A stretch of DNA of 64,000 nt from Symbiodinium sp. CCMP2592 (taxonomy: Eukaryota; Sar; Dinophyceae; Suessiales; Symbiodiniaceae): positions 744,001-808,000 of the forward strand of contig CAJNDT010000513.1 in assembly GCA_905221615.1 (NCBI GenBank), given 5' to 3'. A program made the translations under genes and the position numbers. The first letter of the stretch is position 1. The number at the start of each line of letters is the position of its first letter. The notes beneath the pieces are model-generated. The model worked only from the letters and a program-made list of their open reading frames with translations. It did not search any database and had not been told where the DNA came from. This document shows, piece by piece, positions 55,801 through 58,517 of this stretch.

Positions 55801-58517
55801 ATTCTACTATATCATAACTTTTTCATATCATACTAGGGGCTCAGAGTTTAGGATCCGGGCTTAGTGGATTCAGAGTTCAGGGTTCACGGCTTAAGGTGTA
55901 GGTAGGGGTTTCCCTGACGGTTTCAGGGGTTTAGGGTTTAGGTTAGGGTTTAGGGTTTAGGGTTTAAGGCTTAGGGTTTAGGGCTTAGGGTTTAGGGTTT
56001 GGGGTTTCGGTGCCTTGAAGGTAGCCACATCGCAATCCTCAATCCAGACCACTTTCCTGGGCGCTTAGCTTGGAGGCCCGGTAAAACCTAGGTTTTCGGG
56101 TCTACGTTAGAAGCTGCCCCCACCCTGTAGTCGTGGTATAATAGGAATATAATACGGCCCTAATATAATCCTTATAGTCACGGTTAGAGGGTGGGGGCCT
56201 CTTCTAAGGTCTAGGGCCTAGGCCTTAAACTTGTGGTTGGTGTTCATTCTTATTGTAAACAGATTGTACTTGACTATAAACCCTGAACCCTGAGACACGC
56301 AAAATATGTTCAATAACGGCGCGGCTTCGATGCAGATTCCTGCATGCCGCCGGTGAGCTCCTTCCTGAATACTTCCGATCTGGCGAAGAGAACATGTGAG
56401 TGCGCCGGGATCATCTCATCCTGCACCTTTTAGGGTTTAGGAGTTTGGAGTTTTGCGATTTTGAGCTTACGGTTGTGCAATTTGGGGGTTTTGAGTTAGC
56501 GGTTGAGGCTTTGGGTGTTTAGGGCGTTTAGGGCTTACCTTATCCTCAAATAACATACCCTTTCTAAGCACGTATACACAGAAATCATAAGAAGACTCCC
56601 TAAAGAGGTGGGTGTTATAGGGTCCAGGTAAGCCCTTAGGGCTTATCGTTTCATCCTGCACCTTGAACTGCACGTCGCTGCAGATGCCGTCCTCAAACAA
56701 GGCTTGCCTGGGTTGTAGTTTTGGCCCACGCCAACGGCTATAGGACCATAAGTAAAGGAATTTTTCTATGTATGAACAGGTAGGTCTATAGGACCATAAG
56801 GGAAGTTTGAAAGGTTCCCGAAGTGCCACCTGGCTGCATGTCGCGACTCAAAGTGGGACCGGGAACCTCGACGGTCGGACGGAGCAGCTGGGACATGAAG
56901 TGCTCGTCTGGACGAACTTCCAAAACAAACTTCACCGTCAACGTGTCATTCTCAACCCAAGGCGACTCCAGGAGCTTTTCGTGCGTTAGGCCGAAGATGC
57001 CCACTTTAGCCGGTGCCTTTGAAGCTTCGTGAACATCAGGGCCGTACGCCGTCTCGGAACCGTCATGGACTTCAAAACACGTTTTTCCCCATTGCACGAA
57101 GTCTCCTCCGCACTTCTTGATGTAGATGCCCCACCGCAATGCTATCTCCGAGGACTCGTATGGTGCTATGGCAAGGGAGCCGCACTGACCTGTCATGGAG
57201 GGTGTGAGAGCACCTCCATGAGGATTGTAGACAAACTCGAAGGTGAACTTGCCCACCTGGGTAGTTGTCAAAATTAGGGCCCCTTTTTGGGTAGCCTAAA
57301 TACTAGGTGCCGTATTATAATAGGGACCCACAAGGGACCCTAACTTTGACAACCACCCACCTGGAAGTGAGATGACTCCAAGTATCCTAGCTCACGCTGC
57401 TGAAGCACCGTTGGCAGCCAGGAAAACTGATGAAGTGTCCACCTGGGTTCTAGGGTTTAGGATTTTAGGGTTTTAGGGTTCAGAGTTTAGGGTTCAGGGT
57501 TTAGGGTTCAAAGTTCAGGATTTAGGATACTAGGGTTTAGGGCTTAGGGTTCAGGGTTTGGGGTTCAGGGTTTAGGGTTTAGGGATGGGTTGTAGTTTCG
57601 GGGCTCTGAAAAGTAGTTAGGAAGAGGTACCTCTATAGGAACCATAAGGGAAATTGAAAAGCTTCCCAAATTGCCACCTAGCCACACATACTCGCCCCTC
57701 GCAAGCTGGTGCCCGAAACTCATACTTTCCTCACATGCAGCATGAGGCACATAGACATCGTTCTTGGCGGGAGCGGCTGGACACGAATCTCCAGGGATAG
57801 CCGGTCCATCTCGGTCCTCGTCGACCCTGTTTCGGTACCACACTTCCACACTATTCTTGTGCGTCTCACGCGCTAAAATCGCCTTCTGCATATCCAGCCT
57901 CCGCCGCAGCCTCTGTCTCTTTTCGGCAAGGGACTACTAGAATGGCTTATATAGAGAGCATTTAAAAAAACCTCAGCCCTAAACCCTAAACCCCTAAAAA
58001 AGATATCCCGTAACCCCCAAAAAACCGTAATCCCCGAACCCCCAAAAAACAAAACTAATCCTCAAACCCCGAAAAACCCTGATTTTGCAGTGCCTCTGTC
58101 GCTCTTCGTCTAGGGTCAACAATAGATTACGTAGGGGCTGACAACGGCTACTAAAGTTATTATAAACCTCTTAACCCCTAAACCCCTAACTCCCTAAACC
58201 CCTAACCCCTACATCCCTAACCCCCGAGCCCCTAAACCCCCCAAAACCGGAGCCTCTGTCTCTCCTCGGTTAGAGACTACTATAATGCATTTCAGATCCC
58301 TTTAAGGGACCCTTAAAAGAACCCCTAAACCCCAGAACCTCCCAAAACCGGAGCCTCTGTCTCTCTAAACTCCTAAAACCCTAAACACCTTTAGATCCCT
58401 TACAGGAAGTAGTTATAAATCCCTTTAGGGAGGCCTCTGTCTCTCTTCGGCAAGGCCGGTCTCGGCCAGGAGCTCACGATGCTTCGCCTGCTCCGCTTGC
58501 ACGCGCCGGCCGGTGGC
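52896..58517 (-). CDS. MATH-BTB domain protein M10, intron-rich, first exon missing
   Basis: Exons by homology: 58517-58435, 57910-57686, 57442-57361, 57256-56838, 56707-56662, 56426-56329, 56056-56014, 55427-55323, 54716-54663, about 54340-54215, 54059-54022, 53004-52896 (stop TAG). The first nine total 1155 nt, exactly 385 codons. They encode coiled coil (ATGRRVQAEQAKHREL), MATH (GEYV/WTLHQFSWLP, then FQ/VGKFTFEFVYNP, GIFGLTHEKLL), BTB (ICSDVQFK/VQDEMIPAHSH, FKA/FLRFIYTD) and part of BACK. The last three carry CSILEQANLL, VFKLPDYIELAKR and WPDVGMKISLVSAGV. Donors are GC, GT, GT, GC, GT, GA, GC, GC, unresolved, GT, GT. The junction of exons 9 and 10 does not resolve in frame with a GT/GC/GA donor, so the gene may be damaged there. 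The exon with the start codon is not found; the LINE begins upstream. Confidence 0.72.
53041..53133. mobile_element. Family B inverted-repeat element, copy B2
   Basis: TTACCTTAACCCCAAATAGC at the left, CCTACCTTTTTAGGGACTTA inside, ending TTAGGGTCCAGGTAGGG. It lies in the last intron of M10, about 35 bp from the acceptor. Confidence 0.72.
54359..54465. mobile_element. Family D inverted-repeat element, copy D4
   Basis: 107 bp, ends GGGAGTTTCCGACAAA and TTTTGGGAAAGTCCC, perfect ACTT duplication (54355-54358 and 54466-54469). It lies between M10 exons 9 and 10, just beside the unresolved acceptor. Confidence 0.85.
54779..55305. repeat. TAC/GTA trinucleotide microsatellite in an M10 intron
   Basis: About 500 bp of almost pure TAC units (roughly 54880-55285) with imperfect AGTAGA and CTACCA edges, inside intron 8 (55322-54717). 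The poly-Val and poly-Leu open frames across it are artefacts. Confidence 0.95.
55404..55630. repeat. Three copies of the start of M10 exon 8
   Basis: The true exon start (plus strand, ATGAACCGCAGGAAAGC, near 55411-55427) is followed by partial copies near 55487-55505 (GATCCGCAGGAAAGC) and 55596-55620 (GAACCGCAGTAAAGCC). AT-rich GATACAGTAT and TATAGTATACTAT sequence separates them. They lie in intron 7, so earlier insertions duplicated the exon edge. Confidence 0.65.
56105..56216. mobile_element. Family I inverted-repeat element, copy I2
   Basis: TTAGAAGCTGCCCCCACCCT and its inverse AGGGTGGGGGCCTCTTCTAA, about 112 bp, in M10 intron 6. Better preserved than I1. Confidence 0.8.
56427..56661 (-). 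repeat. M10 intron 5 bounded by a long direct repeat
   Basis: The donor side reads CAAG|GTGCAGGATGAAACGAT and the acceptor side AAAAG|GTGCAGGATGAGATGAT, a near-perfect direct repeat of about 19 bp with both splice sites at its start. Splicing keeps one copy and the frame (FK/VQDEMI). The middle is family B element B3 plus TTTAGGG-like sequence. Confidence 0.78.
56534..56635. mobile_element. Family B inverted-repeat element, copy B3
   Basis: Ends GGGCTTACCTTATCC and its inverse CAGGTAAGCCC, body divergent from B1 and B2 but keeping GAAATCATAA. It lies inside M10 intron 5. Confidence 0.65.
56709..56826. mobile_element. Family Q element in M10 intron 4, copy Q2
   Basis: TGGGTTGTAGTTTTGG at the left and ATAGGACCATAAGGGAAGTT with TTCCCGAAGTGCCACCT at the right. 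It fills almost the whole 130-bp intron (56837-56708). The same two ends occur in intron 2 (Q1). Confidence 0.7.
57257..57360 (-). mobile_element. Family A element that is exactly an intron of M10, copy A6
   Basis: The element (57259-57358, ends GGGTAGTTGTC and GACAACCACCC) is flanked by a perfect ACCT duplication (57255-57258 and 57359-57362), which is AGGT on the gene strand. Gene strand: CTTCCAG|GTGGGTGGTTGTC to ACTACCCAG|GTGGGCAAG. Removing GT...AG deletes the element plus one 4-bp copy (104 nt) and joins SHFQ to VGKFTFEF in frame, as in the intronless paralogues. Confidence 0.9.
57443..57685 (-). other. M10 intron 2 with Q element and telomere-like filler
   Basis: Donor GAGTATGT|GTGGCT, acceptor AACCCAG|GTGGACAC, giving GEYVWTLHQFSW in frame. 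The donor-proximal part (57586-57680) is copy Q1: GGGTTGTAGTTTCGG to CTATAGGAACCATAAGGG and TTCCCAAATTGCCACCT. The acceptor-proximal 150 bp is TTTAGGG-like sequence absent from intron 4. Confidence 0.72.
57911..58434 (-). repeat. M10 intron 1 with five copies of the exon-edge sequence
   Basis: GCCTCTGTCTCT-type copies (plus strand) start at 57909, 58092, 58252, 58353 and 58433. The outer two are the real exon edges (gene strand GAGACAGAG|GC). The three inner ones are separated by CCCTAAA-type filler. Two copies also share the following GACTACTA sequence (57932 and 58274). Confidence 0.72.

Follow-up and report, generated by a model that had tools for sequence, protein, structure and literature searches.

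How can a transposable element that lands in a coding exon end up as an intron of the same gene? The question is raised by element A6, a short inverted-repeat transposon in the gene M10 of the dinoflagellate Symbiodinium sp. CCMP2592. The element lies in a stretch of 64,000 nucleotides (contig CAJNDT010000513.1, positions 744,001 to 808,000; hereafter the window) in which the related genes M1-M10 form a tandem array, all in one direction. The explanation that best accounts for the evidence as a whole, with a probability of roughly 0.87, is that a miniature inverted-repeat transposable element (MITE) inserted at an AGGT word in an exon of M10 and gave rise to a new intron. The locus would be a clean example of intron birth, in which the element, its duplication, the splice sites, the reading frame, and the empty relatives are all visible.

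Element A6 and the third intron of M10

A6 has the ends GGGTAGTTGTC / GACAACCACCC (the coordinates of the features are collected in Table 1). On the forward strand, both flanks read ACCT, which corresponds to AGGT on the gene strand and confirms the perfect duplication described in the original prediction. A blind count of the direct repeat gave 9 bp (CCAG|GTGGG), since target and element ends are alike. The gene-strand hairpin amounts to -61.8 kcal/mol. Compared with the consensus of the six window copies of its family, termed family A, A6 differs at 8 of 101 positions, all of them private to A6. Family A has the features of a MITE with terminal inverted repeats (TIRs): it is short, ends in such repeats, and has no coding capacity, and its target-site duplication (TSD) has a constant length, with 4 bp perfectly duplicated in three of the five window copies that have both ends (A1, A2, and A6) and in 10 of 15 genomic copies (L010-L024). 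A search of the window for TIRs combined with a 4-bp TSD gave 18 candidates, compared with 3-6 in five Markov simulations; among these 18, A6 alone showed intron edges at +2/+2.

Spliced alignment was performed with our own script, using a profile of six intronless paralogues and allowing GT, GC, and GA donors and AG acceptors. It placed an intron of 104 nt at 57360..57257, in SHFQ|VGKFTFEF, corresponding to A6 plus four bases, two on each side. When 33,975 junctions were scanned without a splice rule, the top ones were all 104 nt long, with scores of up to 74.5, and the best junction of any other length scored 41.5. Conservation is poor in this region, so that several shifted 104-nt cuts equalled or exceeded the true cut (69.0) and the protein score alone leaves the exact placement loose. 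The placement is decided by the GT-AG dinucleotides together with the element ends: of the 12 best-scoring junctions, 57360..57257 alone was GT-AG. With A6 retained, the reading is frameshifted and meets a stop after six codons; with A6 removed, it stays open over 462 codons (1,386 nt). The alignment recovered the predicted intron, composed of the element plus four bases with AG|GT at both edges. We conclude that A6 coincides exactly with one intron of the BTB gene M10, its splicing being read from comparison with related genes.

The spliced M10 product matched the Pfam BTB domain with an E-value of 3.8e-19, comparable to, and not better than, the intact copies M4 (3.6e-18) and M7 (5.7e-20). 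The original prediction had assigned the joined sequence to a MATH domain, which is a weak call because the matches lie under the Pfam cut-off (0.016 in M4, 0.036 in M7; absent from the M10 listing); Pfam supports BTB. In the PDB, the sequences that M4 matched best were speckle-type POZ proteins, chiefly across the BTB part.

If M10 were a pseudogene, A6 would be a mere insertion at AGGT in dead coding DNA and would never be spliced. M10 is indeed more diverged from the other paralogues (synonymous divergence, pS, 0.64-0.71; nonsynonymous divergence, pN, 0.33-0.34) than the others compared are among themselves (pS 0.41-0.59, pN 0.22-0.26). However, its pN/pS of ~0.5 is the same as among the others, a ratio that covers the whole divergence and not the time since insertion, and its BTB match is intact. 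All 12 aligned exons are open, without a stop in 1,386 nt, although the choice of exons itself avoids stops. Neutral change of 7% would be expected to produce 3.4 stops, and zero stops occurred in 3% of the simulations, which is a weak argument because all private A6 differences were counted as post-insertion. A dead M10 would, moreover, leave the family A copies at three other loci (L025, L035, and L048, described below) unexplained. On balance, we consider it improbable that M10 is a pseudogene.

Relatives without the element

A genome search with the joined 77-amino acid peptide of M10 gave 26 places at E <= 0.001, two of which were the halves of M10. The other 24 all crossed the joint in one piece and without stops, 23 of them reaching residue 75-77 and one residue 56. 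The longest measured 267 nt, where ~228 are expected, corresponding to small insertions and to no intron of the size of A6. Among the 24 were M1, M4, M6, M7, and M9 of the window; M2, M3, M5, and M8 were outside the list of 26 places, and M2, M3, and M8 are nevertheless open across the joint position. The letters SHFQ/VGKFTFEF, reported in the original prediction as uninterrupted in paralogues, are absent from them; what stands is that the homologous position is uninterrupted, for example SHFELGNQEFLF in M3. Because all 24 other places are uninterrupted, the intron is private to M10 among the relatives found. An intact exon in relatives without the element points to intron gain, both for M10 (24 of 24) and for L025 (12 of 14 rows).

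As an alternative, A6 could have replaced or filled an older intron instead of creating a new one. At profile position 460 (phase 0), M9 and M10 do both have an intron, and elements are nested in their long introns. At the A6 site, however, none of the 24 other loci, M9 included, has an intron, and the M10 intron consists of the element and its duplication and nothing else. Furthermore, the empty site of L025 is gapless in a 91% identical relative. An older intron at this site is, in our estimate, highly improbable.

Family A across the genome

The assembly (1.098 Gb, 5,383 contigs) contains the 11-bp family A end 11,475+11,519 = 22,994 times, compared with 348+382 = 730 occurrences of the reversed control. 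There were 4,115 complete elements in which two perfect 11-bp ends enclose 64-94 bases, with 0 for the control; A6, having one end mismatch, is excluded from these perfect-ended counts. AGGT was present on both sides of 43+31 = 74 of the 4,115 copies, and ATGT or ACAT on both sides of 367+373 = 740, which makes the latter ten times commoner. For family B, a sister family with 10-bp ends, 49+35 = 84 copies were counted by their AGGT flanks alone. A scan of IMG/VR with an 18-base TIR pattern gave only one phage contig (L001), which we rejected as a family member because it is a chance match to the TIR only. No match was obtained in a scan of prokaryote genomes with 21 bases of the element.

We read 54 of the 74 AGGT copies, 30 with flanks of 1,500 bases and 24 with flanks of 400. 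This genome-wide search, which had been suggested along with the original prediction, did find family A copies at probable intron edges: at three of the 54, coding sequence is restored when the element is taken out. At L025 (C11), the joined 64-amino acid peptide matched 14 places, two of them its own halves. The remaining 12 cross the joint, 10 covering residues 1-64 and two covering residues 2-64, with the best one 91% identical; two of these relatives (C867 and C1067) score alike and may be one locus assembled twice. Between the joined sequence and the best relative, 149 of 184 nt match without a gap, and the relative has a single ACAGGC at the site. We read the L025 product as hydrophobic and possibly ion channel-like; the library searches gave it no name. 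At L048 (C1112), the ankyrin period of 33 residues (Pfam Ank_2, 2.3e-70) is re-established once 102 nt are taken out, the retained form has stops, and the locus itself was split in the search. Many of the 203 matches of its joined peptide cross the joint at 50-60%, although such repeats readily align with one another. The joint at L035 (C435) is bridged by two relatives (42% and 37%), and the one that was aligned has a gap of two residues immediately behind the joint.

The genes in which family A copies would form introns are unrelated: one encodes a BTB protein, one ankyrin repeats, and two (L025 and L035) hydrophobic products, the case of L035 resting on the 42% and 37% relatives. From these sequence comparisons, we conclude that family A has probably made introns in four genes (M10, L025, L048, and L035). 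A6 and the three AGGT copies with element-free relatives support the predicted introner family that operates through AGGT.

Target preference and proposed mechanism

Across the 54 AGGT and 20 ATGT copies, C precedes the duplication in 36 of 74 and G follows it in 36 of 74, with a background of 0.27 each. By set, C was found in 22/54 AGGT and 14/20 ATGT copies, and G in 27/54 and 9/20, respectively. Owing to this excess, we consider C-ANNT-G the preferred target. The word CATGTG occurs at 7 of the 20 ATGT copies, and AGGT makes up 71 of the 494 ANNT words on the coding strand of the six intronless paralogues.

According to our model, A6 would be a non-autonomous TIR DNA transposon of the MITE type that was mobilized by a transposase presumably encoded elsewhere and inserted into the M10 exon at C-AGGT-G, duplicating AGGT. 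The upstream copy would then provide, as AG|GT, the exon end and the 5' splice site, and the downstream copy, likewise as AG|GT, the 3' splice site and the exon start; the element itself would supply neither splice dinucleotide. A branch point-like TTGAC, which the TIR offers in either orientation some twelve bases upstream of the 3' AG, may assist the presumed splicing. Since removal of the element plus four bases restores the exon, the insertion would have been tolerated as a new intron. The AGGT form of the family A target C-ANNT-G would correspond to the proto-splice site CAG|GTG, and insertions at other exonic ANNT words would be unspliceable and either be lost or alter the protein.

The family B element in M7 is a natural negative: it is of similar build, lies in an exon, lacks AG|GT, and is not an intron. 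Removing 110+4 bases from M7 gives a paralogue-like C-terminus (AKPQNQESVQVAG, compared with EKPQEQQSEQSTE in M4). As it stands, M7 ends with VGVSENRGK, which is element sequence and forms a new C-terminus and stop. The AGGT copy in an exon, which would be spliceable, and its ATGT sister in an exon, which would not, indicate which four bases decide the outcome. It is tentative, at close to even odds, that target choice and not element sequence causes intron gain here, in which case a small fixed share of about ten thousand family A copies, a number derived from the 22,994 ends, would become perfect introns, with family B and others behaving alike. The data suggest that the proportion of copies turning into introns may be set by the target preference, and with so many copies, the rate at which insertions give rise to introns can be measured.

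Coding context of the AGGT copies

At the first 30 loci read, the sense codon-usage score at the joint exceeded both that of 663 random AGGT words (p=0.0004) and that in antisense (p=0.008). A series of results, however, weighs against our interpretation. The codon score was not high for A6 (-0.8) or L048 (-3.5). The joined peptides of L056 and L040 matched only themselves in the genome, and Pfam gave nothing in eight further joined peptides, nor in five of six earlier ones. Frames open on both sides over at least 120 nt occurred in 9/54 copies in sense and 5/54 in antisense (Fisher p 0.39), and comparison with 1/40 strand-tests at 20 ATGT controls gave p 0.04. A total open span of at least 240 nt was found in 11/30 sense and 9/30 antisense readings and in 10/30 strand-tests of 15 mixed controls. 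The full proto-splice word CAGGTG is present at 9 of the 54 AGGT sites. The 3' end of the element reads TTGACAACCACCC in either orientation, and a yUnAy branch-like motif is present in 52 of the 54 AGGT copies, a frequency that is partly built in by the search pattern, which fixed the TIR end. Finally, the strong RNA hairpin of the element might hinder splicing as well as help it.

As a mark of exonic AGGT copies, open-frame length failed, since it did not separate sense from antisense; for the same reason, the majority of AGGT copies probably lie outside exons, and a clear coding context was missing at most of those read. In numbers, family A is mainly an ordinary MITE. Its introns might be rare by-products and no trait of the family, so that the term introner overstates its role, a matter of naming that is compatible with the mechanism. 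The 74 AGGT-flanked copies among 4,115 perfect-ended ones, against 740 flanked by ATGT or ACAT, the scarcity of clear coding context, and the single intron among six window copies agree with this view. Against it stand probably four unrelated genes that have a family A copy as an exact intron, and a reading that covered 54 of the 74 AGGT copies, leaving aside the other 20 and all copies with imperfect ends. We regard this view as quite possible, at somewhat less than even odds.

The gene array and its other elements

M1-M4, M7, and M8 are single open frames, and spliced alignment gave 11 introns in M10, eight in M9, and two in M6. The array thus combines intron-poor copies (M1-M4, M7, and M8; 3552-39261) with intron-rich ones (M9 and M10; 41368-58523), and few intron positions are common to M9 and M10. 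GC or GA donors were found in 12 of the 21 introns of M6, M9, and M10, along with repeated AGG boundaries. Across the splice junctions of these 21 introns, the direct repeat had a mean length of 5.7 bases, compared with 3.07 when junctions were exchanged among introns, and 0 of 5,000 such shuffles reached 5.7. Repeats of at least 7 bases were present in five of the 21 (0.24 expected), including A6. Because the junction repeats exceed the shuffled expectation, intron gain with duplication may be common in the M array.

The introns 26469-26784, 56427-56661, and 57911-58434 lie between direct repeats of 12-14 bp made up of exon sequence (GAGGCAGGCTGGAG, AAGGTGCAGGATGA, and AGAGACAGAGGC). The first two contain CCCTAAA-like filler, the first also a TIR element and the second a stretch related to it. 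These introns may have arisen by break repair or by insertion with long duplications. Two further M10 introns, 57443-57685 and 56708-56837, have ~65 bp in common at the 5' side and a CTACAACCCA stretch, with edge repeats of 3-4 bp (GTGG, GCA). This family C, known from two copies whose element ends are not fixed, may represent another introner family in M10, one with a 3' AG of its own.

Besides A6, the window contains five family A copies; pairwise identity within the family is 68-82%, 10-base flanks included. The five had been described as lying outside exons with ATGT, ATAT, or imperfect duplications, which holds; in A4, however, the 5' part is replaced, and this copy sits in an M9 intron. 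The family B element at 54359-54465 is nested within an M10 intron.

M5 (21074-22703) shows a frame change near 22110-22160, reflecting a broken gene or an assembly error, and was left out of the analysis. A very long trinucleotide repeat at 54750-55320, within an M10 intron, is open in several frames. Adjoining M10, a long open frame with an endonuclease/exonuclease/phosphatase domain (58726-62736) is probably a non-LTR (long terminal repeat) retrotransposon. TTTAGGG-like repeats are present in the window; like the GC and GA donors, the repeated AGG boundaries, and the one-directional array, they are compatible with a dinoflagellate genome. The spliced-leader motif was not found in these 64 kb. 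Rfam gave no match at gathering cut-offs, and the M4 protein no confirmed match in IMG/VR.

Table 1. Positions of M10, element A6, and the other family A and B elements in the window
Feature	Position	Strand	Description
Gene M10 as far as aligned	52944..58523	-	12 exons, 11 introns; 462-amino acid spliced reading without stop; ends are alignment limits
M10 exon 3 (..ESSHFQ)	57361..57442	-	Spliced alignment
M10 intron 3	57257..57360	-	GT + element + AG, 104 nt, phase 0
M10 exon 4 (VGKFTFEF..)	56838..57256	-	Spliced alignment
Element A6	57259..57358	-	100-bp foldback MITE; 11-bp TIRs GGGTGGTTGTC, one mismatch at one end
A6 target duplication, upstream copy	57359..57362	-	ACCT (AGGT on gene strand); AG, upstream exon end; GT, putative 5' splice site
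A6 target duplication, downstream copy	57255..57258	-	ACCT (AGGT on gene strand); AG, putative intron 3' splice site; GT, start of downstream exon
Copy A1	144..244	+	Outside mapped genes; ATGT/ATGT
Copy A2	23783..23883	+	Between M5 and M6; ATAT/ATAT
Copy A3	31383..31482	-	Between M6 and M7; ACTT vs ATTT
Copy A4	41560..41662	+	5' part replaced; nested within M9 intron 42148..41427, away from its edges
Copy A5	50224..50328	+	Upstream of first mapped M9 exon; ACGT vs CTGT
Family B element in M7	32534..32643	-	ATGT duplication (gene strand); in C-terminal coding stretch; no AG|GT
Family B element	54359-54465		ACTT on both sides
Family B element	30952-31052		ATAT on both sides
Family B element	25014-25116		ATAC on both sides

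Comparison with known introners

Family A is probably a new family, but the kind of introner to which it belongs has been published, and the mechanism is not new. The family A element was not found in the introner literature searched; as no published introner sequences were compared, it may be listed in a supplement. The introners of Micromonas and Aureococcus, described by Huff et al. in 2016, are reportedly MITE-like and use their TSDs for splice sites. They are said to differ from A6 in having longer TSDs and in carrying one splice site within the element.

Roy et al. (2023), as summarized in the review PMC11453091, reportedly describe many introner families for dinoflagellates, among them Polarella glacialis. 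For Amoebophrya, the passages of Farhat et al. (2021; PMC7789003) on introner elements describe inverted repeats near the intron ends and direct repeats of 3-5 nt over the boundaries, in mainly non-canonical introns and with no family-specific inverted repeat found. A6 resembles these elements in its terminal inverted repeats and in the direct repeats at its boundaries, but it differs in its GT-AG intron and in belonging to one conserved family (PMC7789003).

For the Symbiodinium microadriaticum introners, the relevant passages of Gozashti et al. (2022; PMC9860276) describe TIRs, 4-bp TSDs, and a splice site derived from the TSD, with an example intron at positions 86725-86839. A6 shares with them the TIRs, the 4-bp TSD, a TSD-derived splice site, and a similar length; it differs in that both of its splice sites would come from the TSD, a comparison of build and not of sequences. 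In the same source, both splice sites of Florenciella and other introner families are said to come from the TSD or the neighbouring exon (PMC9860276). A6 is thus like the Florenciella introners, although in a different lineage, in being an element that would contain neither splice site.

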